Assembly (NCBI GenBank): GCA_016789265.1
Contig: JAEUQK010000001.1
Span: forward strand, 62,001-126,000
Reading direction: 5' to 3'
Length of the DNA: 64,000 bases
Source of the DNA: Blastocatellia bacterium
GTDB taxonomy: Bacteria > Acidobacteriota > Blastocatellia > Pyrinomonadales > Pyrinomonadaceae
Part shown: positions 40,218-56,311 of the stretch, one piece after another
Layout: the number at the start of each line of letters is the position of its first letter
Position numbering within the stretch: position 1 is the stretch's first letter
The notes under the pieces: generated by a model
Database searches by the model: none
Seen by the model: only the letters and a program-made list of their open reading frames with translations
What the model was told of the DNA's origin: nothing
Translations under genes and position numbers: made by a program

Positions 40218-40945
40218 AGTTAACAGTCTGCAAAGACCTGGATGAGCTGAGTTCAAAGGCGGCGGCCGAATTTGTTCGCATTGCAGAAGAGTCAATAAGC
40301 GAACGCGGAAGATCAACAGTGGCACTCTCCGGCGGATCAACACCAAAAGCACTTTATCAAAAGATCGCAAACGTTGATCTGGATTGGCCCAAGATCTTCT
40401 TCTTTTTTGGCGATGAACGCAATGTTCCCGCCGATGACATCCAAAGCAACTACAACCTCGCAAAGACGGAACTTTTCGAAAAGCTGCCCGTTTCGAAATG
40501 GAACGTGGCGGCATGGCCAACCGAGATCTCCTCACCCGAGGAGGTCGCACGAACCTATGAGCAGATGTTGGAGATCTCATTCGAATCAATTACTGAGCAT
40601 GATCAACGTCCGAGATTCGATCTGGTTCTCTTAGGAATGGGCCCGGACGGGCATACCGCTTCCCTTTTCCCCCACACTCGGGCACTCAGTGAGACCAGAC
40701 GTATAGCCGTTGCAAACTGGGTTCCTCAGCTTGATACATGGCGATACACACTTACGTTTCCCGTAATCAACAACGCAAGAAACATAATGTTCCTGGTCGC
40801 CGGAGGAGATAAATCGAGCGCTGTTAGGTCCGTGATCGAAGGCGAGGCTATTCCGATGGAACTTCCCGCTCAATCCGTTGATCCGGCTCATGGCGAGCTG
40901 TTCTGGTTTCTTGACGAAGCGGCCGCCGCCGAACTCTCCTTGTAA
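40214..40945 (+). CDS. pgl: 6-phosphogluconolactonase
   Basis: 243-aa enzyme of the NagB/RpiA-like fold that hydrolyses 6-phosphogluconolactone made by Zwf. Key parts: [17 protein letters not shown], the catalytic region [43 protein letters not shown] and [17 protein letters not shown]. The ATGA overlap with zwf supports the assignment. Confidence 0.95.
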
Positions 40946-40994
40946 ACATTTGATTTTCAATGTTACTAAACCTACCATTCAGACTTATAAGATT

Positions 40995-42311
40995 ATGGAA
41001 CTTGAGATAGCGGCTTGCTTGTCGATCCTGGTCGTCCTCGTCTTTTTGGCGACCGTCGATATGGCGTTTTCGCATCTTTCTGATCTTAGCCTGCGACGAC
41101 TTTCGTCTGACACCGAAGACGCGGGAAAGAAAAGGACTTACATTTTTCTTCGCCAGATCCTCGATGACCGTCCGCGTTTTAGGTTTGGCCTATCGTCTGC
41201 GATCCAGTTCCTGCTCATAACTTTCACCGTACTGGTCACGGTCTTAACGCTTCGTTACACACAGGACCGGACCTGGCTTTTGGTTTTTGCGTTGATGATC
41301 GGGTTACTCGCGACGGTTCTCTTCCGTCAAATACTTCCTCGGCTGATCGTTCGGAGCAATGCCGAATCAGTCCTGCTCTTTTTGTTGCCGATAGTTAGAC
41401 CTTTGTATCAAATAACCGCCCGAGTTACGGCACCATTGACCTCGCTTTTTGCTACTCGTGAACAACTTCAAAAGATCGAGGCGACTGTCTCTCCGGATAC
41501 TTCTGATGAAAAAGACGACGACGAAGATATCCAGGCGTTACTCGAGGTCGGTGAGGCCGAAGGAATAATCGAAGAAGAAGAACGAGAGATGATCGAATCG
41601 ATGGTCGAGTTCGCGGAAACACGTGCGGGTGAAATAATGACCCCGCGAACCGAGATCTGCGCTGTCTCAGCCGATTCGACCATTGGTGTCGTGCGCGATC
41701 TGATCATCGCGGAAAAATACTCTCGACTGCCTGTCTATCGTGAAAATATCGACAACATCGAAGGGACGATATATGTTCGCGACTTACTCCAGGTTTGGGC
41801 GGAGGGCGGAAAAGAGGACGAGCCAATTTCACCATTGCTTCGCGATGCCTTTTTTGTGCCCGAGACCAAAACGGCCGCCGAACTTCTGAAAACGATGCAG
41901 GTCAACCACGTCCAACTCGCCATAGTTGTAGACGAATACGGCGGCGTCGCGGGAATTGTAACGGTCGAAGACTTAATTGAAGAGATCGTCGGCGAGATCG
42001 AAGACGAAGACACCGAAGACGAAGAGATAATAGAGATAATCGAGGGCGAGGACGGCTATTTTGATGTCCTTGGCTCGACAGAGATAGACAAGATCGAGCG
42101 TTTGTTCGGCATCGAACTTGAAGATGATGACTACACGACGATCGCCGGGTTGGTCACATCAGAAGCAGGACACGTACCGAAGGTTGGCGAGATCCTCAAC
42201 ATCCGCGGCCTCGAAATAAAGGTCAAACACGCCGACGATAAGAAACTCGCACTATTGAGGATTCGGCGGCATACCAGCGAGGATAGTGAGAACTCCGATT
42301 TCCAGGAGTGA
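40995..42311 (+). CDS. CNNM/CorC-type membrane protein with CBS domains
   Basis: About 438 aa. An N-terminal membrane part (IAACLSILVVLVFLATVDMAFSHLSDL and three further helices) is followed by a CBS domain pair (GEIMTPRTEICAVSADSTIGVVRDLI; VPETKTAAELLKTMQVNHVQLAIVVDEYGGVAGIVTVEDLIEEIVGEIEDE) and a C-terminal CorC/HlyC domain (LGSTEIDKIERLFGIELEDDDYTTIAGLV). Members export Mg2+ or Co2+; older names call them haemolysins. The start at 40995 is chosen because the membrane part begins there; the frame opening at 40878 lies inside pgl. Confidence 0.9.
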   Translation: MELEIAACLSILVVLVFLATVDMAFSHLSDLSLRRLSSDTEDAGKKRTYIFLRQILDDRPRFRFGLSSAIQFLLITFTVLVTVLTLRYTQDRTWLLVFALMIGLLATVLFRQILPRLIVRSNAESVLLFLLPIVRPLYQITARVTAPLTSLFATREQLQKIEATVSPDTSDEKDDDEDIQALLEVGEAEGIIEEEEREMIESMVEFAETRAGEIMTPRTEICAVSADSTIGVVRDLIIAEKYSRLPVYRENIDNIEGTIYVRDLLQVWAEGGKEDEPISPLLRDAFFVPETKTAAELLKTMQVNHVQLAIVVDEYGGVAGIVTVEDLIEEIVGEIEDEDTEDEEIIEIIEGEDGYFDVLGSTEIDKIERLFGIELEDDDYTTIAGLVTSEAGHVPKVGEILNIRGLEIKVKHADDKKLALLRIRRHTSEDSENSDFQE

Positions 42312-42357
42312 GAATGTCATTTGTGTTATACTTTCGGAAATTCATTGGAGGTAGGTT

Positions 42358-43017
42358 ATGTCGATCAGATTGGGTGATGAAGCACCGGACTTTACCGCGC
42401 AGACGACAGAAGGCGAGGTCAATTTTCATGAATGGCTCGGCGACAGCTGGGGAGTCCTTTTTTCTCACCCGAAGGACTATACTCCAGTCTGCACCACCGA
42501 ACTCGGGATGGCTGCAAAGCTCAAACCGGAATTCGACAAACGCAACGTCAAGATCATCGGGTTGAGCGTCGACCCTCTCGAATCTCATGAGGGTTGGGAA
42601 AAAGACATCGAAGAAACCCAGGGCACTGCCGTGAATTTTCCGATGATCGCCGATTCGGACCGAAAGGTCTCTGACCTATACGGCATGATCCACCCGAACG
42701 CAAGCGATACCTTCACAATTCGCTCGGTTTATGTAGTCGGCCCGGACAAAAAGGTAAAGTTGATGATCACCTATCCCGCAAGCACGGGCCGCAACTTTGA
42801 CGAGATACTTCGCGTGATCGATTCGCTTCAGTTAACCGCAAATTACAGTGTCGCGACACCGGTCAATTGGAAAGATGGCGACGATTGCATCATCGTCCCG
42901 GCCGTCACCAATGAGCAGGCGAAAGAGAAATTCCCTGCCGGATTTACGGAAATAAAACCGTACCTCCGCATAACGCCCCAACCGAACAAGGTTAAAGGGG
43001 AGAGCCATTCGGCGTGA
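42358..43017 (+). CDS. 1-Cys peroxiredoxin (Prx6 type)
   Basis: 219-aa peroxidase that reduces hydrogen and organic peroxides. The peroxidatic cysteine is in HPKDYTPVCTTELG (about residue 45); the long C-terminal dimerisation domain (RVIDSLQLT...VATPVNWKDGDDCIIVPAVTNEQA) places it in the Prx6 group. A cysteine is present in GDDCIIVP, but no typical 2-Cys C-terminal motif is seen. GGAGG lies 8 bases before the ATG. The following gene is on the same strand. Confidence 0.94.
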   Translation: MSIRLGDEAPDFTAQTTEGEVNFHEWLGDSWGVLFSHPKDYTPVCTTELGMAAKLKPEFDKRNVKIIGLSVDPLESHEGWEKDIEETQGTAVNFPMIADSDRKVSDLYGMIHPNASDTFTIRSVYVVGPDKKVKLMITYPASTGRNFDEILRVIDSLQLTANYSVATPVNWKDGDDCIIVPAVTNEQAKEKFPAGFTEIKPYLRITPQPNKVKGESHSA

Positions 43018-43097
43018 ATGGCTAAGTAACCTCAGTTTGAAGCGCAGCGATCGGAGAAACGAGGTCAGCGATCCTGCGCCTTTTATCAGCAAGTCCT

Positions 43098-43595
43098 ATG
43101 AAACTCCAGGCTCAGGTTGGCGAAGAGGTCCATCAAGTAAATATCATGCGCGATGGTAGCAACGTTGTCGCAAAGATAGGTGACCGCGTGTACAGGCTTG
43201 AGTCGTCTGAGGTCGGACCGAATGTCCATTTATTCAAGGTAGATGGGAAGATCTATGAATTATGCGTTACCGCATCAGGTGATTCATTTCGAATATCAAT
43301 GGATCGAAATGAACTTGACGTCAAGATCATCGACCCTAAGAAGTTGAGAGGATCAGGAAGCAATTCCGGTGACACCGATGGCGTAGCCGAGATCAAGACG
43401 ATGATGCCTGGAAAGGTAGTACGATTTGTGGCGAACCCGGGACAAGACGTCGAAAAAGGCGATGGCGTGATCGTCGTCGAAGCGATGAAAATGCAGAACG
43501 AACTTAAGTCGCCAAAGGCAGGAACGCTAAAAGAGTTTCGCGTTAGCGAAGGCGATACTGTAAGTGCGGGAGACGTTCTTGCTTTAGTTGAATGA
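43098..43595 (+). CDS. Biotin carboxyl carrier domain protein (acyl-CoA carboxylase type)
   Basis: 165 aa. The C-terminal biotinyl domain (about residues 90-165) has the target lysine in VVEAMKMQNELKSPKAG. The N-terminal region (QAQVGEEVHQVNIMRDGSNVVAKIGDRVYRLE) looks like the beta-barrel part seen before the carrier domain in propionyl-CoA or 3-methylcrotonyl-CoA carboxylases. No carboxylase or transcarboxylase subunit is next to it, so the partner is unknown. The next gene is convergent, separated by a small palindrome. Confidence 0.88.
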   Translation: MKLQAQVGEEVHQVNIMRDGSNVVAKIGDRVYRLESSEVGPNVHLFKVDGKIYELCVTASGDSFRISMDRNELDVKIIDPKKLRGSGSNSGDTDGVAEIKTMMPGKVVRFVANPGQDVEKGDGVIVVEAMKMQNELKSPKAGTLKEFRVSEGDTVSAGDVLALVE

Positions 43596-43654: not shown

Positions 43655-45145
43655 CTAGCGGTTAATTCGGGCCTTTACCGCCCGGTCCAGATTCTCCCTC
43701 GCAAGTTTTAGCCCGTCGGTGACTTCGACGAACCACGCATCATCTTCAACCTCAAACTCGCGTTCGACACCGAGAGCACGTTTTGTCTCGGACGGCGCGG
43801 TGCCCCCGTAGATCGTACGAATGTTAACAAAGTTCTCCGGCGAGACGGCAGCAATAAGCTCGTCTTCGGTCATGTGAAGGTCGCGGCCGATAACCTCGTT
43901 AGCTGACTTTTGCAGGATCTCAAAGGTCACATCGGTTCCGGCATCGATCGCCGCTTTCACACAGTTGCCCACGATCTTGTGCGAAACGCGGAACGGCAGC
44001 CCTTCTTTTCTCACTATCGTGTCCGCCAACTCGGTCACTGCGATGAAATTCTCGCCGGCACGTTTTTTAAGGACATCAAAATTGAAAGTTGCAGACCGCA
44101 GGGTACTCGCAAAAAGAGCGACCGTTCGATCGGCATCGCGCATCGCTGAGTAAATGAGCGGCTGCAAGTCGTCCTCGACGTCATTTATGTCGCCGAAAGG
44201 TGTGTTGTGCACTGCGGTAAGCACCCCAAGAGTCTGGCCGAGGGCCTTACTGCCGATCGCGCGTATGTGCTCTAACGCGACCGGATTTCGCTTCTGCGGC
44301 ATGATCGATGAACCCTGAACATAACCATCAGGCAGACGTATCGCATTGAATTCCATCATGGCCATGAGCAGGAATTCCTGTGCAAACTTGCCGGTATTTA
44401 CCAATAACGCAGCAACAGCGCCCAGCGTTTCCGTAAAATAGTCAACAGAGGCGATAGAACCATATGAATTCACGGTCGGTGCCGTAAACCCGAGGAGTTC
44501 AGCGACTCGATGCCTGTTGATCGGAAATCCCGTTGTCGTGATCGCACCGGCGCCCAGCGGGCAGTAATTCATATTCTCGAACGCACGCATCAGACGCTTG
44601 ATATCGCGGCCAACATTCTCAGCCATTGCAAGCAGAAAATGAGCCATTGTCGACGGCTGCGCCGGTTGTGTATGCGTGTAAGCCGGGATCAGCGTCTCGT
44701 GGTGTTGAGAGGCGAGATCGAGAAACACTCTTCGCAGATCCATCGCAGAACGCATCAAATTCAGGCAATCCTGACGCAAATGCAGCCGATAGATAGTTAC
44801 GTCGATGTCGTTGCGGCTTCGGGCGGTGTGGAGCTTTCCAGCGATGTCGGGGTCGCAAAGCTTAGCGATCTCTTGCTGCAGCAAATAAAAAAGATCCTCG
44901 AATGTTCCGTCGTATTCGCGTCCGCGGATCCCGTCGAAGTCCAGTTCGGTCAAGGCTCTGAGAATCTCATTCAGTTCAGCTTCACTAACGATCCCTTGTT
45001 CGCCGAGCATTACGGCGTGAGCAAGATCGACCTGATGATAAGCGTCGAGGAAATGCTCCTTTGCGTCCGCGAAACAATCCGCCAGGACGTTGTCCTTATA
45101 GCTCTGTGCCGGAAATTTCTCCGTCTGTTCTTTGCTCTGCATCAC
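43655..45145 (-). CDS. ArgH-family lyase (argininosuccinate lyase-like)
   Basis: 496-aa member of the fumarase/aspartase superfamily. The superfamily signature is GSSIMPQKRNPVALEHIRA and the substrate region is HTARSRNDIDVTIYRLHLR. Standard argininosuccinate lyases read SRNDQ..TD.RL and begin with LWGGRF; here Gln is Ile and the N-terminal WGGRF block is missing. The gene overlaps the secreted PIG-L gene by 4 bases and ends an operon with a symporter, a catabolic setting. It may be a lyase for another N-substituted aspartate, releasing fumarate, like EDDS lyase, which shares such features. True ArgH activity is still possible. Confidence 0.85.
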   Translation of the reverse strand: MMQSKEQTEKFPAQSYKDNVLADCFADAKEHFLDAYHQVDLAHAVMLGEQGIVSEAELNEILRALTELDFDGIRGREYDGTFEDLFYLLQQEIAKLCDPDIAGKLHTARSRNDIDVTIYRLHLRQDCLNLMRSAMDLRRVFLDLASQHHETLIPAYTHTQPAQPSTMAHFLLAMAENVGRDIKRLMRAFENMNYCPLGAGAITTTGFPINRHRVAELLGFTAPTVNSYGSIASVDYFTETLGAVAALLVNTGKFAQEFLLMAMMEFNAIRLPDGYVQGSSIMPQKRNPVALEHIRAIGSKALGQTLGVLTAVHNTPFGDINDVEDDLQPLIYSAMRDADRTVALFASTLRSATFNFDVLKKRAGENFIAVTELADTIVRKEGLPFRVSHKIVGNCVKAAIDAGTDVTFEILQKSANEVIGRDLHMTEDELIAAVSPENFVNIRTIYGGTAPSETKRALGVEREFEVEDDAWFVEVTDGLKLARENLDRAVKARINR

Positions 45146-47796
45146 TTTCCGGCCTTTGAGAGGCTCAGCAAATTCGCGAATATCCGGTATGCTCCGGGAT
45201 TTCCAACCGGCAACTGCCTGAACCAGGAATAGGAAGTGTAAATATACTTTCCTTTTCCAACTTCCGCATAGACCATTCCCCCTATACGTTCAGGTTCGCC
45301 TTCGTCGTGTGATTCCAGCAACGCCGTATATTTTGTCGAGTCAAAGTCTGTGAAACCGTAAAGGTTTCGTTCCTGAACCCAGTTCAGCCAATCGGCGTCG
45401 CCGATCTTATTTGGGAAGTTGAAGATCGGATGTCCGGGTACCAATACCTTGATCGAGGCGTTCTCGTCCGTGACGCGAAAATTACCGTCCATTTTCGCCG
45501 GATACGGCGGCAAATTGAGGCGAATGTATTCCTGCTGCTGATATTGAGTGATCAGCGTGCCGCCATTCTTCATGAATTCGATCAGGCGCCCATTGTTCGA
45601 GACATAATCGGGCCTGACTTGTGAAGCTCTGACGCCGACCACGATCGTATCGAACTGAGAAAGGTCACCGGTCGACAGCGCCTTTTCGTCAAGCATCGTG
45701 ACGTTGAGGCCCATTCTTTTTATCGCATCCGGAACCTTGTCGCCGCTTCCCATGATATAGCCCACTCGTACGGGAGCGACCTTCAGATCCAATACCTTAG
45801 CTGAGATTTCTGCATTGGTATAAATGCGGTGGGTTTGGATGTGAGGATACGCGATCTCTTGGACCTTTTGGCTGTACGATCTTCCGTCCATTTCCGCCAC
45901 CGCTTTAAGCGTATAGGAGTCCGCCTTTGTGTTTGCCGGTATTGTAAGATCGAAAGCAACCGCTGTCGTATCCCCTTTCCGAGGCAGATCGAAATTTGCC
46001 GACGCGGGCGTAAGTGTCCAGCCGGCAGGCAGGTCCAACTTCGCGGACCCCTTCGCTGCGGACGACGAATTGTTTTCAACCGTCATCACGACCCGATATT
46101 TCTGTGCTTTGTTTGAGGCCGGAGCGATCAAAAGATCCGATTCAAGCCCGACCGTAAGCGCGGGCACCACGTTCACCTCCCTTCGAATCTCGCCACGTAT
46201 ATCGTCAGAGTAACGGTATTGAACGTCTCGCTCAACTTCGATCTCTTCACCGCCGACGTTCAATTTCACGGTCGCGCGAATCAACGAAGGAGCAAATGGC
46301 ATATTCTTGCTCATGCCTGCGTTGGCCCAATCAAAGTTGTAGTTCTTTCTCGGAGATTCAAGCCAGTAGGGCTGGGTTAGTTTTGCGTCGGCAGACGCCG
46401 TCACTTTGAAGAATGCCGCGCCGAAGGAGGTCTCTCTTCGTGGACGGAATCCTGTCTCGGACGCCTGTTGAGGTTCATCAGTCTTTACCGCAGTCCATCC
46501 AGACGGAACCGAAAGCGTTGTATCGACAATGTTTACTTTCGAGTTATCCGGAGCAAACACTCGCACCGAAACATTTGCCGAATCGCCGGCGACCATCGTC
46601 TCGGTGCTATTCAGTGCGTCGACGACAATACCAGCCGCAGCCTGCAAAGCCGCCGCAAACTCTCTTTGCTTCTCTCGGCAAAACTCCTTTGAGAGCGGAT
46701 TTCGTGTTGACCACTCCGCGTCGCGCGCTTCCTTGTGTCCACGGGCAAGAATTGGGATAAGTTTTTCGGGCGCATAGGGATCGTATGACTTAAGAGCCTC
46801 TGCGGCCGTCGCCTGCAAAACCTTCAGCTTTTGGATAAATGGCTCGGAACTGTCACCCGCCAATCCGGCAATGCCGACGATGGAAGTATCTATACCCTCG
46901 AAAACACTCGATTCCGTTCCGGTCGAACCACCCACCGTTTCCGACAATCGCATACCCGAGGTCTGTTTTCCGCGTAGCTCGAGCGTTCCCATTTCCTGAG
47001 ACTTGTGTTGGCTCCGACCTTCCATTGCTATCTCAAAATACGATCGCCCGATCAGGGTGTTGTACTCTCCGGTGTTCAAGGTCAGGGTCGGGGTATTCTG
47101 AGGATTGTTCACAAAGCTTTGAGAAACATAGAGTTTCTTCGCCTGCCAAGTTTCCAGTCCTTCGCTAAGCTGCTCGGGAAACTGCTTTGGATCTGCGGCC
47201 GCCTTAAATGCGATAGGTGTCAGGTAACCTGCAAGCTGGTGCTGTCCGTGTCCGTCGGTAGGGCCACCTACAAATCGGGAAATAATGACAAGAGGCCGAT
47301 ACAGCCTGATCGCTCGAACCATGTCCCCGAGAACTTCCCTTTCACCCCAGATCCGTGAAGCCTCTTCACGTTTCTTTGAAAACCCGTAATCCATCGTGCG
47401 CGTAAAGAACTGCGAACCGCCATCGAGGCGTCGGGCCTGCAGCAGTTCTTCAGTACGGATCACACCCAACCCTTCAAAGAGTTCTTGGCCGATCACGTTC
47501 TGGCCGCCGTCACCTCGATTGAGCGCAAGGTACGCGGTTCTCGCGTTTTCCCTGCGTGCAAGATAAGCAAGCAAACCCGAATCTTCGTCATCAGGGTGCG
47601 CCCCAGTGTGCATCGCGCTCGCAGTCGTCTGCAAACGCTTCAGCATTTGCCCTAGCCCGATCGCGCCCATATCGTAAATTGGACGAACCTGAGCAAGGAC
47701 TGTTCCGGATCCAACCCATACGATCTGAGAGAAAAAAACGGCAGAAAGAATTACAAAAGATTGAAACCTTCGAGTGATCGAACCCTTACCTTCCAT
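45142..47796 (-). CDS. Secreted PIG-L/LmbE-type deacetylase with C-terminal domains
   Basis: About 884 aa from the ATG at 47796 (frame open to 47835). A signal peptide (RRFQSFVILSAVFFSQIVWVGSGTVLAQ) is followed by a zinc-dependent N-deacetylase domain (about residues 45-250): HPDDED with the zinc ligands, and GPTDGHGQHQLAG with the third histidine. The middle part holds Ig/NEW3-like beta domains (VMTVENNSSSAAKGSAKLDLPAGWTL). The C-terminal part (VGYIMGSGDKVPDAIKRMGL...LITQYQQQEYIRLN) resembles a glutamine-amidotransferase-like fold. It would deacetylate an N-acetyl sugar compound outside the cytoplasm. It overlaps the lyase gene and follows the symporter by 7 bases. Confidence 0.87.
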   Translation of the reverse strand: MEGKGSITRRFQSFVILSAVFFSQIVWVGSGTVLAQVRPIYDMGAIGLGQMLKRLQTTASAMHTGAHPDDEDSGLLAYLARRENARTAYLALNRGDGGQNVIGQELFEGLGVIRTEELLQARRLDGGSQFFTRTMDYGFSKKREEASRIWGEREVLGDMVRAIRLYRPLVIISRFVGGPTDGHGQHQLAGYLTPIAFKAAADPKQFPEQLSEGLETWQAKKLYVSQSFVNNPQNTPTLTLNTGEYNTLIGRSYFEIAMEGRSQHKSQEMGTLELRGKQTSGMRLSETVGGSTGTESSVFEGIDTSIVGIAGLAGDSSEPFIQKLKVLQATAAEALKSYDPYAPEKLIPILARGHKEARDAEWSTRNPLSKEFCREKQREFAAALQAAAGIVVDALNSTETMVAGDSANVSVRVFAPDNSKVNIVDTTLSVPSGWTAVKTDEPQQASETGFRPRRETSFGAAFFKVTASADAKLTQPYWLESPRKNYNFDWANAGMSKNMPFAPSLIRATVKLNVGGEEIEVERDVQYRYSDDIRGEIRREVNVVPALTVGLESDLLIAPASNKAQKYRVVMTVENNSSSAAKGSAKLDLPAGWTLTPASANFDLPRKGDTTAVAFDLTIPANTKADSYTLKAVAEMDGRSYSQKVQEIAYPHIQTHRIYTNAEISAKVLDLKVAPVRVGYIMGSGDKVPDAIKRMGLNVTMLDEKALSTGDLSQFDTIVVGVRASQVRPDYVSNNGRLIEFMKNGGTLITQYQQQEYIRLNLPPYPAKMDGNFRVTDENASIKVLVPGHPIFNFPNKIGDADWLNWVQERNLYGFTDFDSTKYTALLESHDEGEPERIGGMVYAEVGKGKYIYTSYSWFRQLPVGNPGAYRIFANLLSLSKAGK

Positions 47797-47803
47797 AACA
47801 AAA

Positions 47804-49483
47804 TTACGCCTCCACGGCTGCATCTTTACCAGCACTTGAATCGGTCAGACTAATTAGGTATCCCGCGATAACAGTTACCAAACATCCGACAACGTTGAAC
47901 CAAAGAAACTCTATTTTTGTGTAATTACTCGCGACCCAGACCGAAGCTATACCGAACAGCAGTCCGAAAAAGGCTCCTCGCGCCTTTGCACGCTTCACCC
48001 CGATGGCAAGCACGAAGACGCCGAGCAACGAACCATAAAAGAAAGATCCGAACTTATTTACCACTTCGATAAGCGAGCCCAGATTTGTCGCGTACATCGC
48101 GACGATACAAGCAAAGATGCCCCACACGAATGTCGCGACCCGTCCAAATGCCACATAGTGACGGTCCGTATCGTTTTGATTGAAATGCCGCTTATAAAAA
48201 TCGATCGTCGTTGCCGTAGCAAGAGCGTTCAGTTCGGCAGATATTGAAGACATAGCGGCCGCAAAGATAGCAGCGATTATCAACCCGATCACGCCCATAG
48301 GCATATTAGCGACAACGAACGACGGAAAAACATAGTTGACATCGTTAAAGCTTGAGTTGCTGGTCGTTGCCTTAACGTAATCGACCGCGTCTTTCCGTGC
48401 GTCGTTGAAGCCTTTATCGGCAGCCACATAGGCTGCTCGAGTTTGATCGTTCTGATTTTCAATAAATTCAACCGCTGCTTTCTCTCGGACCTCATGCGCG
48501 GAATTGAATTTAGTTTGAAGCGACTGATACTGAGCGGTACCGGCGACCTTGGCGTCCTCGACCGGATTGAAGATCATAGGCGGCGTCGCAAACTGATAAA
48601 ACACGAACACCAGCACACCGATCATTAGGATCATGAACTGCATCGGGATCTTCAGAAAGGCACTCATCAGGAGTGACGTCCTGCCTTCGCTTACCGATCG
48701 CGCGGTCAGAAATCGCTGTACCTGGCTCTGATCGCAGCCGAAATATGACAAGAATAAAAAGAACGCGGCGATGATCCCTGACCAGAGAGTGTATTTTTCC
48801 GTGAGATCGAAACTCGTGTTTACGGTATCGAGTTTACCGAGTGATCCTGCGAGATGCAGTCCGTCAGCGATCGAGACGTTTGCCGGAAACTGCGATATGA
48901 CAACAAACATCACAACGGTCATCCCGACGAAGATCACGATCATCTGCTTTACGTCGGTCCACGTAACAGCCTGAACGCCGCCAACCATGGTATAGATCGT
49001 CGTCGAGAGACCGATTGCGAAGATGGTCGCTATCTCGCTCCACCCCAATACGATCGAAAGGATAACTGACGGTGCGGCGATGATCACACCCACGCCTAAT
49101 CCGCGCGAAATCAGAAAGAAGAAACTTGTCAGCGATCGGGTCTTGGCGTCGAATCTTTTCTCAAGATATTCGTAAGCCGTGTAGACGTTCGCCCGATAAA
49201 AGAACGGCACTACGGTGACACAGAGGATGACCATCGCAAGCGGCAATCCGTAATAGAATTGCAGAAAACGCATTCCGTCCGTGTATGCCTGGCCGGTGGT
49301 TCCAACGAGCGTGATCGCCGAAAGCTGGGTAGCCATTACCGAAAGCCCCACCGCCCACCACGGCAAGCTCCGGTTCGCAAGAAAATAGCCTTCGGCACTG
49401 CCGCTGTGCTTTGTCATCCTGACGCCGTCCCAAATGACGTACGTAAGATATGCGACAACGACCGCCCAATCAAGAAATCTCAT
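47804..49483 (-). CDS. Sodium:solute symporter (SSS family)
   Basis: 559-aa inner-membrane protein with about 13 helices. The SSS signature is seen in [33 protein letters not shown] and in [11 protein letters not shown] at the N-terminus; [26 protein letters not shown] is the conserved region after TM6. A soluble loop near residues 330-390 is longer than usual. The substrate could be a sugar, an amino acid or a similar solute. It lies 7 bases after a small membrane protein gene and 7 before the PIG-L gene, so all form one operon. Confidence 0.92.
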
Positions 49484-49490
49484 TGATCTG

Positions 49491-49634
49491 TCAGCTCGAA
49501 AAGTATCTTGAGAACGCCCAAAGCGCAGAGATCACAACTATGGTCGTGATCACGACCGCGACATAAACCTTGTGCCACCAGCTATCCGGCAATTCCTCAA
49601 CAGGTTCCGTCTTTTTCGCAGCGTGTGATCCCAT
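49491..49634 (-). CDS. Small single-helix membrane protein, 47 aa
   Basis: ATG at 49634; the frame is open to a TTG at 49676, which is less likely. The protein has a polar N-terminus ([21 protein letters not shown]) and one membrane helix ([23 protein letters not shown]). It ends 7 bases before the symporter start. Several SSS-type transporters are paired with small membrane proteins in the gene next door, so an accessory role is likely but inferred. No family is recognised. Confidence 0.6.
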
Positions 49635-49660
49635 ATCTTGTGGTAAGGATTTTGCAATGG

Positions 49661-49698
49661 GCCGGATGCTCAGCAATTTACACTGCTGAACACCCGGC
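49661..49698. other. Long intergenic hairpin between receptor and transporter genes
   Basis: GCCGGATGCTCAGCA (49661-49675) pairs over all 15 positions, with two G-U pairs on the minus-strand transcript, to TGCTGAACACCCGGC (49684-49698) around an 8-base loop. On the minus strand no T-run follows; on the plus strand GTTTTT follows. It is therefore not a simple terminator of the TonB receptor gene and may be an mRNA-stability or attenuation structure inside a longer transcript. Confidence 0.6.
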
Positions 49699-49722
49699 GT
49701 TTTTCAACCCGCCCTTGCCCGT

Positions 49723-52683
49723 TTAGAAAATGAACTTAAAGCCGATCTGGGCCTGACGGCTATCCAACGATGTTACGGCACGCGTTTGGGGAGTCGGCAG
49801 TGCCTGTGTCGGATTGCCGAGTGCGTCAGTCGTAACGGTCAAGCTGTTGATCTGGTAAACGCTGTTAATGTTGAAAAGATTCAGGAACTCGGCAAAGAAC
49901 TCGAGTTTGTACCTTTCCGTAAACGGAATGAACCGCGAATACCTTAGATCAACGTTAAACTGCTTAGGCGTCGTGCCCGAGTTCCGTGTGATGCCAACCG
50001 GGTTATCCGACCCAAGAAATCCATCCAGGTTGATATCCGTTGCGGCTACGATGTTGAACCGCTCACCGCTGTTGGCAGTAGCTGTGATGCCAAACTGATT
50101 GTTGTTCAGGACGTAGTTCCACGTCTTGTTAGAGAAGTTGAAATCAGGGCGGCCTACAAAACTTGCTACGAACGTGTGCCTCTGATCCGCGAGTGAAGGT
50201 CCGATGTCGCGTTTTCGATTTGTCGGATCCTGCACCACCAAATTGCCGCTCTGCGTCGCGACCAGATTTTGCTCCGGAGCATCATCTTCAGCCTTGGACA
50301 GAGTGTAGTTCACGCTGAATTGGTAGCCTCTGGAAAACCGCTTGTTGAGCTGCAGGGTCATCGCGTCATACTTCGAGTTCCCGACAGATTCCGCCATCAA
50401 GATATTGTTGAATCGAGGATCCATCCGGGTTGTCGAGTTGACCGTATTGCTGAATATAGGACGACCATCGGCGAGCGTGCTCGTCGGATTTATACGGTTG
50501 ATGTTCCTGTAGAGCGGAATGTGACGCCCGGCCGAATGAATATACCCGACTGTGAACGATAGGTCCTGCGTGATCGCCTGTTCGAGCTGGGCGTTCGCAT
50601 GTATCGCGTACATATTCTCGAAATCGGGAGCGATCGTTTCGATGCTCTGCTGCGGAAGGACCGTTCCTGCCGGAAGTGAGCCGAGAGTGCTCGGGAAAGC
50701 CGGAGCACCTGCGGTTGACGGCGCGAATGTGAAGTTGAAATAAACCGGACTGCCGTTGTTCTGGATGGCACGCTGGTAAAAATCAAGATAGACCGTATCG
50801 TAGTAGATGCCGGCACTTGCGCGTATCACTGTCGGCCGGTTTCCGTCTCGTAACCCGTAAACGATGCCCAATCGCGGGGCGAAGTTATTCTTGTCAACCT
50901 TGAATTTCTGCGAAGCAGAAAACGGCGAAGAACTGTTGGCATCCGGAATGTCATACTGGTCATACCTTACGCCGTAATTCAACTTGAGATTTCTCGTGAT
51001 CTTCCAGTCGTCCTGTGCAAAAAAGTTGTAAAACGTCGATTGATACTCGATATCAGGGCTGCCGAATGCTTCAACATAGTTCGTGTAGCACCTCGTCGCA
51101 CCGCTCGCACAAGTCACACCGGCCTGCACAACTCCGGTCCTTGCTGAAACGTATGCTCCAATGCTCGGGAATGTGTACCGAGCGAAAACATTTGACCGGC
51201 GCGTGTCGTCAATTCGATTAAAACCGAATCCGAATTTCGCGACGTGGTCACCCGTTGTCCACGTCAAGTTGTTCTGTATCTGATTCGTGACTTGAAGCGG
51301 GGCGATCGTGTCGTCATTTTCCGGAGCGCCAAAATTCGCGACTCCGGTGATTACAATACTCGGTCCTGTCCCGGAATTCGCATTAGCCACATTGCGGGAA
51401 TCACGCTTTGCATACTGGTAACGAAACTCGTTAACAAAACTTCCTGAGAGGATCGATGCCAACTGCAGTCCTAAAGAATATGACTTATCGTCAAAATCAA
51501 TACTACGCTCGAGCGTCGTCAGGCCTCCTGCGATATTGTCAGGAGACAAGTTCTTAAAGTAATTGAATCTGCCCGATAATCGGTTCGACTGATTCAGCTG
51601 TGCATCACTTCGAATAATAAAGAAGTTTACTTTTTGAGCCGCAGGGATAGCCGTTGGAAACGCGCTTGCGGGCACACCGGCAGCGATCAATGCCTGTTTA
51701 TTCGCATCAGATATCGTGATCACACGCTGCGGTTCTCCGCCAAGATCGCGATTCACCCACTCATAGCCAGTATAGAAATGCCATCGGTCTTTGATTATCG
51801 GGCCGCCAACAGCTCCAGTTACGTTGTCGACTTTTGTTTCCGGCTTCTGCGAGGTCGGCGATGTGTTGAATGGACGCGACGACATCGCGGTCCTACGGAA
51901 CCGATAGCTCGCTGAACCGTGGAAGCTATTCGTTCCAGTAGGCGTTACGGCATTCATGATCAGTCCCGGGGTGTTGCCGAATTCTGCCGCGAAGCCATTT
52001 GTAACGAGCTGCACTTCGCTGACAAACGTGTCGGAGATCGGCATCAGGCGAATTCCGCCGCGGTCCGCTTGCGTGTTGTTGTTACCGTCGAGCTGATAGT
52101 TAGTTCGGCGGGTATAACCATTTGCGTTGATTCGCGGAACGCCAAATTCAATGTTCGGCCGTCCGGTCACGTTGGACTGAAGCAGTGCAAAGTTGTACGG
52201 ATTTCGAGAAACGTTCGGGAGATTCTGTACTTCGCGAGTATTCATCACTCGGCCAAGATCGATCTTTCCCGGATCGGCTATTGGCGCGTCAGAGGTGATC
52301 GTGACGGTTTCACTCACCGCACCCGCTTCGAGCGTAGCGTTAACGGTTGCGATCTGGCCCGTGGTTAACGTAATGCCTTCGCGGACGAGGCGTTTGAAAT
52401 TTGTCGCCTCGATCGTGATTCGATAATTACCAAGTGGCAGCAACGGCAGCCTGTAAACTCCGCTGCTGTCCGTCGTAACAGTTCGTTCGGTACCGGTGCC
52501 GACATTCGTTGCCTTGACTGTAGCTGATGCGATCGCAGCTCCATTGGCATCGCTGATGATACCTTCGATCTGGCCGTTCAGAGCCTGTGACTGCGCGTCG
52601 ACATTGACAGCCGTTGCTGCGACAAATACTAGAAACAGAACTGCCAGCGAAAAGAGTTTATTGAGTTTAGACGTTGTCTGCAT
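49723..52683 (-). CDS. TonB-dependent receptor, Oar-like
   Basis: 986 aa: signal peptide (FSLAVLFLVFVAATAVNVDAQ), carboxypeptidase-regulatory-like domain (GIISDANGAAIASATVKATNVGTGTERTVTTDSSGVYRLPLLPLGNY), plug-like region (GRVMNTREVQNLPNVSRNPYNFALLQ...FVSEVQLVTNGFAAEFGNTPG), and a large barrel ending in SLDSRQAQIGFKFIF. It fits the Oar/SusC-like receptors common in Acidobacteria. No SusD partner is next to it. The symporter and PIG-L genes follow on the same strand, which suggests that the receptor imports their substrate or a precursor. The upstream region carries a putative operator and -35 box. Confidence 0.88.
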   Translation of the reverse strand: MQTTSKLNKLFSLAVLFLVFVAATAVNVDAQSQALNGQIEGIISDANGAAIASATVKATNVGTGTERTVTTDSSGVYRLPLLPLGNYRITIEATNFKRLVREGITLTTGQIATVNATLEAGAVSETVTITSDAPIADPGKIDLGRVMNTREVQNLPNVSRNPYNFALLQSNVTGRPNIEFGVPRINANGYTRRTNYQLDGNNNTQADRGGIRLMPISDTFVSEVQLVTNGFAAEFGNTPGLIMNAVTPTGTNSFHGSASYRFRRTAMSSRPFNTSPTSQKPETKVDNVTGAVGGPIIKDRWHFYTGYEWVNRDLGGEPQRVITISDANKQALIAAGVPASAFPTAIPAAQKVNFFIIRSDAQLNQSNRLSGRFNYFKNLSPDNIAGGLTTLERSIDFDDKSYSLGLQLASILSGSFVNEFRYQYAKRDSRNVANANSGTGPSIVITGVANFGAPENDDTIAPLQVTNQIQNNLTWTTGDHVAKFGFGFNRIDDTRRSNVFARYTFPSIGAYVSARTGVVQAGVTCASGATRCYTNYVEAFGSPDIEYQSTFYNFFAQDDWKITRNLKLNYGVRYDQYDIPDANSSSPFSASQKFKVDKNNFAPRLGIVYGLRDGNRPTVIRASAGIYYDTVYLDFYQRAIQNNGSPVYFNFTFAPSTAGAPAFPSTLGSLPAGTVLPQQSIETIAPDFENMYAIHANAQLEQAITQDLSFTVGYIHSAGRHIPLYRNINRINPTSTLADGRPIFSNTVNSTTRMDPRFNNILMAESVGNSKYDAMTLQLNKRFSRGYQFSVNYTLSKAEDDAPEQNLVATQSGNLVVQDPTNRKRDIGPSLADQRHTFVASFVGRPDFNFSNKTWNYVLNNNQFGITATANSGERFNIVAATDINLDGFLGSDNPVGITRNSGTTPKQFNVDLRYSRFIPFTERYKLEFFAEFLNLFNINSVYQINSLTVTTDALGNPTQALPTPQTRAVTSLDSRQAQIGFKFIF

Positions 52684-52828
52684 AAGAAGGTTCTCCGTTG
52701 CGTAGAATCATCGAAAAAAAAAGCTGCGAGCCTTTAGGACTTCGCGAACAAATTGCTTTATGACATTCCTGTCCGGCGGGAGTCGATCAGTGTAATGAAA
52801 ATCGTTTGTCGGTACTTCCAACAAAGTT

Positions 52829-52855
52829 TTATTATGAAAGGCTGTTCTGTGTCAA
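52829..52855 (-). promoter_or_regulatory. Putative promoter of the TonB receptor gene
   Basis: On the minus strand a perfect TTGACA (52855-52850), then an AT-rich TAATAA (52834-52829) at 15 bases. Spacing is short and the -10 weak. The receptor ATG is about 145 bases downstream. Confidence 0.4.
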
Positions 52856-52865
52856 GTTTACACAA
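52847..52865. promoter_or_regulatory. Putative ROK operator at the TonB receptor gene
   Basis: CTGTGTCAAGTTTACACAA: TGTGT and ACACA form an inverted repeat around 7 bases. It matches 13 of 19 positions of the palindrome at 54278-54296 and covers the putative -35 box, as a repressor site would. Confidence 0.5.
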
Positions 52866-52977
52866 AGTTAATTGCTTCTTTCACAATATGCCGTTGCGAC
52901 ATCTGGCTTTCTCTGTTTTCCGTCATTTCCCTCCAGATCGGTCAGAGGCTCTCGGCTTTTCTACTAAGATAACTCCC

Positions 52978-54177
52978 TTAGCTCATCGAACCAAACTTCC
53001 GGGCCAGAACCAATCCGATTGCTCCGGTAAGCGTTGGCGACTCGCCGAGTGTTGATGGGAGCAACTCGGTCTGCGGCAAGCCGGCCAGCACGCTTCGCTC
53101 CGAAACGCGCTGAAGTTCGTCCTTGTAAAGATCCCACGCCTTTGTGACCTTGCCGCTCACGACGACGATCTGAGGGCTAAGGCCGACTATCAAGTTTGAA
53201 ATGCCATTGCCCAGATAATGCATGGTTTCGCGAAGCGATTCGACTGCGTGCTTTTCACCGTTTACCGCAAGCTCGATGAGATCGCCGATATCGATATTCG
53301 ACTGTTTCAGATCGTCGATCTTCAGCAAACTCTTGTACCGTGCAACAAGCGCTTTTTCGGAAGCGTACGCTTCCCAACATTCGCGGCTGCCGCACGAACA
53401 CTCGACCGGGGCATTGTCGCCCGCTATCATATGCCCAAACTCACCGCCCGCCCCCATTTCGCCACGATATACCTGGCCGTCGAAAATGATGCCGGTCCCG
53501 ACACCTTCTCCGACAAGTATCATCAGAAAGGTGTCTATTTTTCGTGTCTTTTCCTGGCCAAACCACAACTCAGCAAGAGCGGTTGCGTTCGCGTCGTTTT
53601 CAACGATAACGTGAGATCCGGTCTCTTCTTCGATACGCTTGCAGATATCCCAGTCACGCCAGTTGAAGTATGGTATATGAAAGATCTTTCCCGATCTTTG
53701 GTCGACAAGACCCGGAACACTCATTCCGATCTCGATCCCCTGGTCATGAAACGGCTCAGCAATGCGCCGCGTTCGCTCAAGTATCTGGGCGGTCATGAAT
53801 TCTACGTCCGGAGACGTAGAAAAAGTTTCTTTCTGAAGGATATTTCCCGCCAGATCAGCTAATGCGATCGTCGTGGTCCGCGGTGTGAGATCAACCCCAA
53901 TAGCAACCGGAACTCCGGTCCTTAGCTCATACAACTTTGGCTTTCGGCCGCCGGTCGATTCACCGGAACCGATCTCGACGATCATTCCGTCCGCCAGCAA
54001 TTCGTCAACGATCACCGATACCGTCGATCGGTGCAGTTCCGTTTGCCTTGCGATCTCGGCACGCGAGATCGGAGAACGGTCGCGAACATAGTTCAATACG
54101 ATCTGCCGATTAATATCACGGATCGTATTTAACCGCGCGATCTCATTCTTTGCCTTCTGAAGATTTATTCGCCGCAT
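52978..54177 (-). CDS. ROK-family transcriptional regulator
   Basis: 399 aa: an N-terminal winged helix-turn-helix (IVLNYVRDRSPISRAEIARQTELHRSTVSVIVDELLADGMIVE, about residues 25-70), then a ROK sugar-kinase-like domain. The nucleotide/sugar segments are VAIGVDLTPRTTTIALADLAGNI and VENDANATALAELWFG; the zinc motif is CSCGSRECWEAY. Such proteins (NagC, Mlc, XylR) are usually repressors relieved by a sugar or sugar phosphate, often an amino sugar. It lies upstream of the receptor, symporter and deacetylase genes on the same strand and is likely to control them and itself. Confidence 0.92.
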   Translation of the reverse strand: MRRINLQKAKNEIARLNTIRDINRQIVLNYVRDRSPISRAEIARQTELHRSTVSVIVDELLADGMIVEIGSGESTGGRKPKLYELRTGVPVAIGVDLTPRTTTIALADLAGNILQKETFSTSPDVEFMTAQILERTRRIAEPFHDQGIEIGMSVPGLVDQRSGKIFHIPYFNWRDWDICKRIEEETGSHVIVENDANATALAELWFGQEKTRKIDTFLMILVGEGVGTGIIFDGQVYRGEMGAGGEFGHMIAGDNAPVECSCGSRECWEAYASEKALVARYKSLLKIDDLKQSNIDIGDLIELAVNGEKHAVESLRETMHYLGNGISNLIVGLSPQIVVVSGKVTKAWDLYKDELQRVSERSVLAGLPQTELLPSTLGESPTLTGAIGLVLARKFGSMS

Positions 54178-54277
54178 TTTCGAGGCATTGGGCCAGCCCG
54201 GGACTTTGTTGGGTCTAAAGACAAAGAAACAATAACTTGAAATAAATCACATTTCAAGTCGCGGTTTCAATTTTCGA

Positions 54278-54296
54278 TTGTGCCATTTTGGCACAA
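54278..54296. promoter_or_regulatory. Perfect palindrome, putative ROK operator
   Basis: TTGTGCCATTTTGGCACAA: 8-bp arms TTGTGCCA/TGGCACAA with a 3-base centre. It lies 101 bases upstream of the ROK start codon and 60 bases from the mutL stop. Probably an autoregulatory site. Confidence 0.6.
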
Positions 54297-54355: not shown

Positions 54356-56311
54356 CTAAGTTCGATGGAATCCGCGCTCAATATCTTTCATTGAAAGGCG
54401 GAGAACCACTGGGCGGCCGTGGGGACAGGTTGTTGGGGACGACGTCGTGAGAAGCCCCTCGATAAGCCACTGCATCTTTTCGGGCGTCAGTTTCATGTTT
54501 ATCTTGACAGCGGCCTTGCAGGCCAGTGAAGCAGCTATATCGTCCCGGAGGGTTGATTTTGCATTACCGCGTTTTTCGATCTCGACATTGTCAAGTATCT
54601 CTGCAAACAGATTCCTCGCCTCAGCCGGCGGAAGGTCAGTAGGTATAGATTTGATCGCGACCGTTCGACCCGACAGCCGCATCACACCAAACCCGAGATC
54701 CTGAATTTCGTCTTCAATGAGTTGGAAGGCCTCGGTTTGCGCAGGTGTCAGGTCTAACGTCTCAGGCAGAAGCAAATTCTGAGACTCGATCGGACGCTCA
54801 GTCTCTTTTCGGCGAAACTTATCAAACAAGATCCGTTCGTGTGCAACATGCTGGTCGATCAAAAGCAGGCCCTCGTCATCGACGGCAATTATGAAACTAT
54901 CATGCAGTTGCGCGATCGGGCGGATCTTTGCCCCGGAGATGCTCTCGACACCGACCGACTTTGCCAGCTTTTCCGCCGAATTGACTGGCGGAAGCACAGC
55001 ATAGCTTTTCGGGGCCGCATCGACGGGGAACTCGCGCCCCACATTCGCGGTATCAGCCCGGATCTCGACTGCCTTTTCGAATGCTCTCGATATCTCGTCT
55101 AACCTCTGCTCTGTGTCCGAAACTGTCGCGGTGAGCAGTTCGAATGCAGGCTGGTCCTCAATTATTGGAGATCGATCCACAAACTCAACACTCGGAGAGC
55201 GAGGGATAGTGCCGTCATTCGCCGTATCGACGTTTCCGGTGGACACAAGTTCCTTGTCAAATTTCTCTGGCAGGGGGGCAACCGACGAAACGGTTTGTTC
55301 TGAAACATTTGGGACGATTCCCGCCTTTGACAAAGCCTCACGGACCGCTTCAGCTATCACATCTTTTACGGCTTCGCTTCGTCGAAACCGGATCTCTGTT
55401 TTCGCCGGGTGAACATTTACGTCAATTTCTTCGACCGGGACATCCAGAAACAGAAATGCGACCGGATAAACCCCGTGAGGAAGAACCGAGCGATATCCCT
55501 CGATCAGGCCGCCGGCAATGGTCTTGTCTCGAACAAATCGCTGGTTTACGAAAAAATACTGCGAATCTTTACTTGTGCGGCGTTCTCGCGGTGCTGAAAT
55601 AAAACCCGACACCTTAGCGACATAGTCGCGCCCGCCGGAAACCGGCAGCAGGCTATCAAGCAGCCCGCCGCCGAATATCTGAAATGCTCGTTCGCGGAGT
55701 TCCTTAGCCGGAGAAGCCGCTAAAACTTCCCTTCCGTTATTAGTAAGCGTAAAGGCTATTTCAGGATGGGCGAGGGCATAATGTGTAACAATGCTTGCAA
55801 TGTGATAATTCTCGGTCGCTTCAGATCTCATGAATTTTCTGCGAGCCGGGGTATTGAAGAAAAGATCTCGGACCGAGATCGTTGTTCCAACGTCGCGTGC
55901 AGCATCCTTTACATCAATTAGCCTCCCGCCTTCGACCACTACTCTGGTGGCCGCGATCTCGCCTTCGATCTTCGTGACAAGTTCTACTTTGGCTACGGAC
56001 GCGATCGATGCCAGGGCTTCACCTCGAAAGCCGAGAGTATTGATCGCCGCCAGATCATCAAGAGTACTTATCTTTGACGTCGCATGACGCTCGAACGCAA
56101 GGATCGCATCATCGCGTACCATTCCCTCACCGTTGTCTGCGATCCGCATCAATCGCCGGCCGCCAAGTTCGACCTCGACGTGGATCCGGCTTGCCCCGGC
56201 GTCGATAGAATTCTCGACCAGTTCTTTTATGACGGACGCCGGCCGCTCAACAACCTCGCCGGCCGCGATCTGGTTAGCAAGATTATCCGCCAAGACCTTT
56301 ATCTTGTTCAT
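54356..56311 (-). CDS. mutL: DNA mismatch repair protein MutL
   Basis: 651-aa GHKL ATPase. N-terminal motifs are ELVENSIDAGA, DNGEGM, GFRGEALASI and GTTISVRDLFFNTPARRKF. The C-terminal half carries endonuclease-type motifs: DQHVAHERILFD (near residue 485, consensus DQHA..E....E, so two positions differ), ACKAAVKI, CPHGRP and the final FHR. This is the nicking MutL found in species without MutH. It starts one base after the bshC stop, so the genes are co-transcribed. No mutS is nearby. Confidence 0.96.
   Translation of the reverse strand: MNKIKVLADNLANQIAAGEVVERPASVIKELVENSIDAGASRIHVEVELGGRRLMRIADNGEGMVRDDAILAFERHATSKISTLDDLAAINTLGFRGEALASIASVAKVELVTKIEGEIAATRVVVEGGRLIDVKDAARDVGTTISVRDLFFNTPARRKFMRSEATENYHIASIVTHYALAHPEIAFTLTNNGREVLAASPAKELRERAFQIFGGGLLDSLLPVSGGRDYVAKVSGFISAPRERRTSKDSQYFFVNQRFVRDKTIAGGLIEGYRSVLPHGVYPVAFLFLDVPVEEIDVNVHPAKTEIRFRRSEAVKDVIAEAVREALSKAGIVPNVSEQTVSSVAPLPEKFDKELVSTGNVDTANDGTIPRSPSVEFVDRSPIIEDQPAFELLTATVSDTEQRLDEISRAFEKAVEIRADTANVGREFPVDAAPKSYAVLPPVNSAEKLAKSVGVESISGAKIRPIAQLHDSFIIAVDDEGLLLIDQHVAHERILFDKFRRKETERPIESQNLLLPETLDLTPAQTEAFQLIEDEIQDLGFGVMRLSGRTVAIKSIPTDLPPAEARNLFAEILDNVEIEKRGNAKSTLRDDIAASLACKAAVKINMKLTPEKMQWLIEGLLTTSSPTTCPHGRPVVLRLSMKDIERGFHRT

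Follow-up and report, generated by a model that had tools for sequence, protein, structure and literature searches.

A ROK-linked gene cluster of a Blastocatellia bacterium predicted to take up and break down the glucosaminyl-malate backbone of bacillithiol

In this study, a gene cluster was analyzed in a 64,000-nt stretch of DNA (the window) from a Blastocatellia bacterium of the family Pyrinomonadaceae (contig JAEUQK010000001.1, positions 62,001 to 126,000). Its six genes encode a ROK-type regulator, an Oar-like outer-membrane receptor, a small protein with a single transmembrane (TM) segment, an SSS family Na+ symporter, a putatively exported PIG-L/LmbE-type protein, and an ArgH-superfamily lyase. 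In this soil bacterium, the cluster is probably under ROK control and serves to import and dismantle the glucosaminyl-malate (GlcN-Mal) backbone of bacillithiol, an antioxidant common among bacteria, or of its conjugates or acetylated precursor. With somewhat less confidence, we favor a wider reading, in which bacillithiol scavenging and catabolism through a GlcN-Mal lyase acting by C–O β-elimination would be widespread among bacteria of several phyla, with versions exchanging the transporter (glutathione-using Alphaproteobacteria included) and with the enzyme mislabelled argH. In Acidobacteriota, it would be joined to an extracytoplasmic salvage cycle of exported amidase, Na+ symporter and BshC, which may be likened to the γ-glutamyl cycle of glutathione.

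Gene cluster and proposed pathway

The initial annotation had listed six ORFs on the minus strand, and their positions and domain assignments were reproduced, as were the motifs HPDDED and GHGQHQL in the PIG-L protein. The tight spacing of the last four genes was also seen, with a 7-base gap between the small ORF and the symporter gene and an overlap of a few bases between the lyase and PIG-L genes. The GTG start listed for PIG-L overlaps the symporter gene by 32 bases; an ATG at 47796 leaves a 7-base gap and is likely the true start. The features are as follows.

43655–45145, minus strand: ArgH-superfamily lyase, predicted glucosaminyl-malate lyase (496 aa; alternative ATG at 45142; Lyase_1 and ASL_C2)
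45142–47835, minus strand: predicted exported PIG-L/LmbE-type N-acylglucosamine amidase (PIG-L, PF02585 above cut-off; NEW3, NPCBM_assoc; C-terminal domain)
47804–49483, minus strand: SSS family Na+ symporter (SSF and TIGR00813)
49491–49637, minus strand: small single-TM ORF (48 aa from ATG; 61 aa from TTG at 49676)
49723–52683, minus strand: Oar-like outer-membrane receptor (CarboxypepD_reg and beta barrel OMP_b-brl_4)
52805–52825: predicted ROK operator in the receptor promoter, TTTGTTGG-N5-CCGACAAA, directly 3' of a conserved TTGACA
52978–54177, minus strand: ROK (NagC/Mlc-like) transcriptional regulator (ROK and winged helix)
54205–54225: predicted ROK operator in the regulator's own promoter, TTTGTCTT-N5-CCAACAAA, with promoter-like hexamers immediately upstream
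54356–56311, minus strand: mutL, flanking gene between the cluster and bshC (TIGR00585 above cut-off)
56313–57995, minus strand: bshC, bacillithiol cysteine-adding enzyme (TIGR03998, 448 bits, cut-off 265.8; sole copy in the genome)

Lyase class I enzymes usually act on O- or N-succino groups, from which they eliminate fumarate. One of them, 2SL, releases fumarate from the S-succino group of N-acetyl-S-(2-succino)cysteine (PMC9706529). Bacillithiol is Cys-GlcN-malate (PMC4360819); LmbE-type enzymes have N-acetyl- or N-acylglucosamine cores as their targets, and Bca is presumed to release GlcN-malate for recycling (PMC4101496). Since GlcN-malate carries an O-succino group, its elimination to fumarate and glucosamine is proposed here.

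In the proposed route, the receptor would carry bacillithiol-type molecules across the outer membrane, and the exported PIG-L protein would hydrolyze the amide on the glucosamine nitrogen to yield GlcN-Mal, as Bca does within Bacillus cells. The Na+ symporter and its small TM partner would import this product, and the ArgH-like enzyme would serve as a cytoplasmic GlcN-Mal lyase, forming fumarate and glucosamine by β-elimination from the malate moiety. Glucosamine would be brought into glycolysis by a kinase and a glucosamine 6-phosphate (GlcN-6-P) deaminase, and the ROK protein would repress the locus until an inducer is present. In relatives without the lyase, the PIG-L and symporter core probably gives GlcN-Mal back to BshC for re-use.

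The general scheme of receptor, exported N-deacylase, Na+ symporter, fumarate-releasing lyase and ROK regulator had been put forward in the initial annotation and is well supported by conservation; its chemical steps are predictions. The lyase had been taken for a C–N lyase, probably the wrong bond, because GlcN-Mal is an O-glycoside and the predicted cut is therefore at C–O. The initial annotation had guessed well in suggesting an N-acylated amino sugar or amino-acid conjugate as substrate, but bshC at 56313–57995, the neighbor that tells most, was overlooked and the bacillithiol connection was thereby missed.

Linkage to bacillithiol genes and history of the cassette

In the window, bshC lies two genes upstream of the cluster, and physical linkage to bshA, bshB or bshC was observed in more than one lineage. 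The genome encodes BshA (493 bits, cut-off 273.7), BshC, and a 252-aa BshB1-like protein, which together with the large PIG-L protein makes up its only two PIG-L proteins. Among 217 Acidobacteriota genomes, PIG-L and bshC were close together in six outside the window's genus, spanning three families besides the window's own. In three of these, from one family (G221, G257, and G214; loci L178–L180), bshC directly adjoins PIG-L on the same strand. The other three, G254 (L181) from one family and G162 (L182) and G183 (L183) from another, have a contiguous operon, bshC-bshB1-bshA-PIG-L-SSS, with scores of 380–394 bits for BshA, 251–266 for BshB1, and 308–397 for BshC, all above the curated cut-offs. 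Locus L105, found independently via the lyase, has the order bshB1 (split over two frames)-bshA (500 bits)-PIG-L-lyase, with a convergent bshC (432 bits). By our own rough estimate, chance would bring the two genes together in about 0.4% of genomes, against the 6 observed among about 90 genomes with both genes, so that chance proximity is unlikely.

A linkage of PIG-L and bshC general across the class was considered and rejected, because outside the genus only G053 among the class relatives has both genes within about 6 kb; the bacillithiol claim therefore rests on the specific operons. In a plasmid search, BshC retrieved three records, and the symporter gave only weak, general SSS matches. 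The lyase also faces bshC (440 bits) in a metagenome-assembled genome labelled "Acidimicrobiia" (L163), possibly a binning error involving an Acidobacterial contig.

Relatives were searched for the same gene set, as the initial annotation had proposed, and it was found conserved as a unit. The large PIG-L occurred in 58 of 60 genomes (own and relatives), and the lyase subfamily in 18 genomes of the genus (own included), adjoining PIG-L in all 18. Comparison of 20-kb regions around the loci showed that five members of the genus without the lyase (L075–L079) also have neither ROK nor receptor; most of them keep SSS-PIG-L, with or without the small TM gene, beside mutL, and bshC lies further out in four of the five. 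Lyase-bearing genomes have ROK and receptor inserted in the interval from mutL to the small TM gene, with the lyase added after PIG-L. At unrelated loci in six genomes (L069–L074), the block receptor-small TM-SSS-PIG-L-lyase was found without ROK, mutL, and bshC. This comparison does not bear out the six genes as a single set; it indicates an old core of SSS and PIG-L and a later joint gain of ROK, receptor and lyase.

Two Gammaproteobacteria that have SSS-PIG-L-lyase are placed next to the genus's lyase-bearing clade in the tree of PIG-L (support 94/92, just under the threshold), which suggests transfer of the set as a unit. From these sequences, SSS-PIG-L-lyase likely moved laterally as a unit in L100 and L101. 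The PIG-L and lyase of these two loci, one from a Woeseiaceae member, are 50–66% identical to those of the window.

In other phyla, tblastn against plasmids placed the large PIG-L (26–38% identity) no more than a few kb from the lyase (about 40%) in Aminobacter, Rhizobium, Agrobacterium, Thalassospira, Loktanella, and Deinococcus wulumuqiensis; all four plasmid regions read encode ROK, a PfkB/sugar kinase, and an ABC transporter of the sugar type. Scanning 84,980 species genomes with the lyase alignment yielded 80 loci. Within about 9 kb of the lyase, a transporter gene was found in 66, PIG-L in 40, ROK in 34, a PfkB/NAGK-type kinase in 25, a NagB or SIS protein in 4, and bshC in 2, these counts being lower bounds as many contigs are short. 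In Alphaproteobacteria, Bacillota, and Deinococcota, the lyase has ROK, PIG-L, and sugar ABC transporters as neighbors; a NAGK-type kinase gene lies directly 3' of it in eleven Bacillota loci, and PfkB adjoins it in Alphaproteobacteria. Paroceanicella has transporter-lyase-ATPase-ROK kinase-nagB with no PIG-L nearby (NagB 242 bits, cut-off 237), and this minimal version of lyase, kinase and NagB is the strongest pointer to glucosamine as the lyase product. Next to the lyase gene, Roseomonas and Bosea encode a NagB-II-like protein that falls short of the 430-bit cut-off (313 and 322 bits). The SIS proteins beside the lyase had their best matches in NagB-II or GlmS and scored only 20–29 bits against the model for fructoselysine deglycase. 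Deinococcus plasmids carry cassette versions with a small MshB/Mca-like PIG-L (L089 and L094), and D. deserti has the lyase and a small PIG-L, with no large PIG-L in the region read.

On the opposite strand of the window (38679–43595, plus strand), the neighbors are genes for glucose-6-phosphate dehydrogenase, a 6-phosphogluconolactonase/glucosamine isomerase-family protein (40214–40945), CNNM/CorC, a 1-Cys peroxiredoxin, and a biotin/lipoyl-domain protein, several of which stay beside PIG-L in relatives. On the other side, a sortilin/BNR-repeat protein gene (58147–60330, minus strand) adjoins bshC, a position kept in the genus.

The lyase, the amidase, the transport proteins and the regulator

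The window lyase scored 350 bits against the ArgH model TIGR00838, above the cut-off of 279.5. A canonical ArgH was found on another contig beside an argG-like ORF (628 bits; 32% identity to the window lyase), and the window lyase is thus an ArgH paralogue and not the arginine enzyme of this genome. Like ArgH, it has the fold and the superfamily catalytic residues; the elements SRND, TH, SSxMPQKxN, and ELAD are retained in the subfamily, and the aspartase/fumarase signatures, the SSxMPQKxNP loop and TH(x)Q, are invariant in 38 members. Unlike ArgH, it is not part of an arginine operon, and in the tree the subfamily forms one clade split from ArgH at 100/100 support. The arginine-binding loop Y-N-(K/R)-D-(M/L)-Q-E was present in 8 of 8 ArgH rows of the alignment, whereas D replaces the loop Y in all 42 subfamily rows and the Q is found in none. 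In the subfamily, the YNKDxQEDK loop becomes D-(I/M/T)-(N/V/Q)-D, the commonest forms being HNTPFGDI(N/V)DxED or HNTPFTDMNDSEG.

The AF2 model of the lyase (pLDDT 94.1) has EDDS lyase, which also releases fumarate, as its nearest solved fold (6rx8 and 6g3d), followed by ASL. The likeness to EDDS lyase is limited by 28% identity, a different pocket loop, and the aminopolycarboxylate substrates of that enzyme. The subfamily members tested pass TIGR00838, and RefSeq calls the subfamily argH in L088, L090, L092, L093, L095–L097, and most loci of the genome scan. An archaeal ArgH-like lyase from Haladaptatus plasmids (L091), with mandelate-racemase-type and MFS genes as neighbors, has no HNxPFxDxND loop and branches outside both ArgH and the subfamily.

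In the PIG-L protein, the Zn triad H80-D83-H199 and the base D82 were invariant in 29 homologues. Its AF2 model had a pLDDT of 89.2, with the PIG-L domain resembling BC1534, BshB, LnmX, and chitobiose deacetylase. The protein is likened in its action to Mca/Bca and not classed as either. It shares with them the PIG-L/LmbE fold, the HPDD...H metal site, and the predicted N-acylglucosamine amide target, and their product, GlcN-Mal or GlcN-Ins, is presumed to be recycled (PMC4101496). It differs from them in its length of about 850–900 aa with NEW3 and a C-terminal domain, in its predicted export in Acidobacteriota, and in its coupling to an importer and a lyase.

Judged by eye, the N-terminus resembles a Sec signal peptide. 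By the same inspection, a signal-peptide-like N-terminus was seen in Acidobacterial, gammaproteobacterial, and Paenibacillus PIG-L proteins and in none from Alphaproteobacteria. In the alphaproteobacterial loci (L132–L173), where it stands with an ABC transporter, the large PIG-L was without a signal peptide, which was present where PIG-L stands with SSS. Because the signal peptide varies with the type of transporter, the position of PIG-L in the route appears to have switched between outside and inside; in Alphaproteobacteria, the ABC transporter would import the substrate before PIG-L acts.

The symporter scored 262 bits against TIGR00813 (cut-off 184), its best solved relative by sequence being 5nv9. 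The small TM ORF had no Pfam or NCBIfam match. At 41–72% identity, it precedes SSS in most of the compared loci with SSS upstream of PIG-L, and the 48-aa protein may be a symporter subunit. The gene was also seen before SSS in two genera of another family, besides the whole genus. The Oar-like receptor gene relocates together with SSS-PIG-L-lyase to other loci.

Intergenic alignment revealed a 21-bp palindrome, TTTGTYKN7MRACAAA, before the receptor gene and a second before ROK. Both window sites match it exactly, and 0.22 matches would be expected in the window with one mismatch allowed. Only 4 sites were found in the 3.88-Mb genome, 2 of them in this cluster; the remaining two were rejected as further regulon members, one being inside an ORF and one in a low-complexity TTTG run. 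The site before the receptor gene is conserved in all nine aligned loci with ROK. With a relaxed pattern, nine ROK-bearing loci and L098 were compared: both sites were present in nine, and one in L064, where the upstream site is degenerate. None was found in the examined loci without ROK. The sequences thus point to a ROK-regulated operon with a predicted operator shared by the regulator and target promoters and lost with the regulator, to which ROK would bind. In other phyla, the lyase and PIG-L repeatedly have ROK genes as neighbors. The cluster recalls NagC-type control of nag loci in having palindromic sites before both the regulator gene and its target, and distant cassette versions share NagB and kinases with such loci; unlike nag loci, it has an outer-membrane receptor, PIG-L, and the lyase in place of NagA and PTS.

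Alternative explanations and significance

Several points weigh against the bacillithiol assignment. The PIG-L protein scored only 36 bits against NCBIfam mycothiol_Mca (cut-off 277), and we know of no superfamily member that cleaves O-glycosides. The window cluster has no kinase or deaminase gene, and the NagB-II-like protein of its own genome scored only 226 bits (cut-off 430), with neither a kinase nor a transporter recognized as a partner in its gene neighborhood (C14). Most genomes of the same class outside the genus do not have PIG-L next to bshC. Moreover, the host appears to be a bacillithiol producer, in which a GlcN-Mal lyase would consume the cell's own precursor if it were not kept under tight control, and L105 places the lyase within a bsh operon. 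ROK repression is a natural answer to a producer destroying its own intermediate, hence the weight given to the operator sites.

The most serious rival is repair or salvage of S-succino compounds, since linkage to bsh genes fits thiol chemistry no less than it fits the backbone. Like 2SL, the lyase would then free fumarate from S-(2-succino)cysteine or S-(2-succino)bacillithiol, and PIG-L would only release the cysteine adduct. The precedent is a close one: 2SL, itself a lyase class I enzyme, frees fumarate from a succinated thiol, N-acetyl-S-(2-succino)cysteine (PMC9706529), in the dedicated yxe salvage locus. Unlike yxe, the cassette has amino-sugar kinases, deaminases, and a PIG-L amidase as partners and no N-acetylation genes, and a family scan of the Acidobacterial locus turned up no gene like the yxe partners (acetyltransferase, deacetylase, and ABC). 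S-succino salvage would leave unexplained why the lyase adjoins glucosamine-type kinases and GlcN-6-P deaminases, as well as the sugar-type ABC transporters, the ROK regulators, and the Paroceanicella arrangement, and we regard this explanation as unlikely.

We give the same low probability to a different glucosamine conjugate, either another 2-substituted succinate or an N-acyl amino sugar, with a coincidental or secondary bacillithiol linkage. The kinase and deaminase genes require only an amino-sugar product, and the cassette occurs in Alphaproteobacteria, users of glutathione rather than bacillithiol. Complete bsh operons containing PIG-L-SSS or PIG-L-lyase argue for bacillithiol, and among natural conjugates that join glucosamine to a 2-substituted succinate, GlcN-malate is to our knowledge the only common one.

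An Amadori-type substrate (fructosyl-aspartate or asparagine), from which the lyase would yield fumarate and an amino-deoxy sugar, is very improbable. PfkB kinases and SIS deglycases serve fructosamine pathways, genes of both types adjoin the lyase, and N-substituted aspartates of the fructosyl type fit the superfamily; but the SIS proteins fit NagB-II or GlmS best (20–29 bits to the deglycase model), Paroceanicella has a true NagB, and PIG-L would be left without a role. Equally improbable is a plain second argininosuccinate lyase next to an unrelated deacetylase and transporter, which the TIGR00838 score and the many members named argH in RefSeq would suggest: a canonical arginine role was rejected on account of the separate clade, the replaced arginine-binding loop, and the canonical ArgH elsewhere beside its argG-like gene, and the lyase keeps conserved company in many lineages.

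Preferring a GlcN-Mal lyase, we predict a new enzyme activity within thiol and amino-sugar salvage loci, themselves of a known kind. In the literature searched, with most subscription papers outside its scope, bacillithiol synthesis, use, S-transferases, and Bca are described, and no uptake, breakdown, extracytoplasmic salvage or GlcN-malate lyase was found. Bacillithiol and its derivatives have been termed the most broadly distributed low-molecular-weight thiols (PMC6282198). The locus offers a testable route for bacillithiol uptake and breakdown and suggests that bacteria not making this thiol feed on it. A new activity is predicted for a large family that databases currently list as argininosuccinate lyase; the argH misannotation is systematic and could make arginine synthesis look complete in genome models when it is not.
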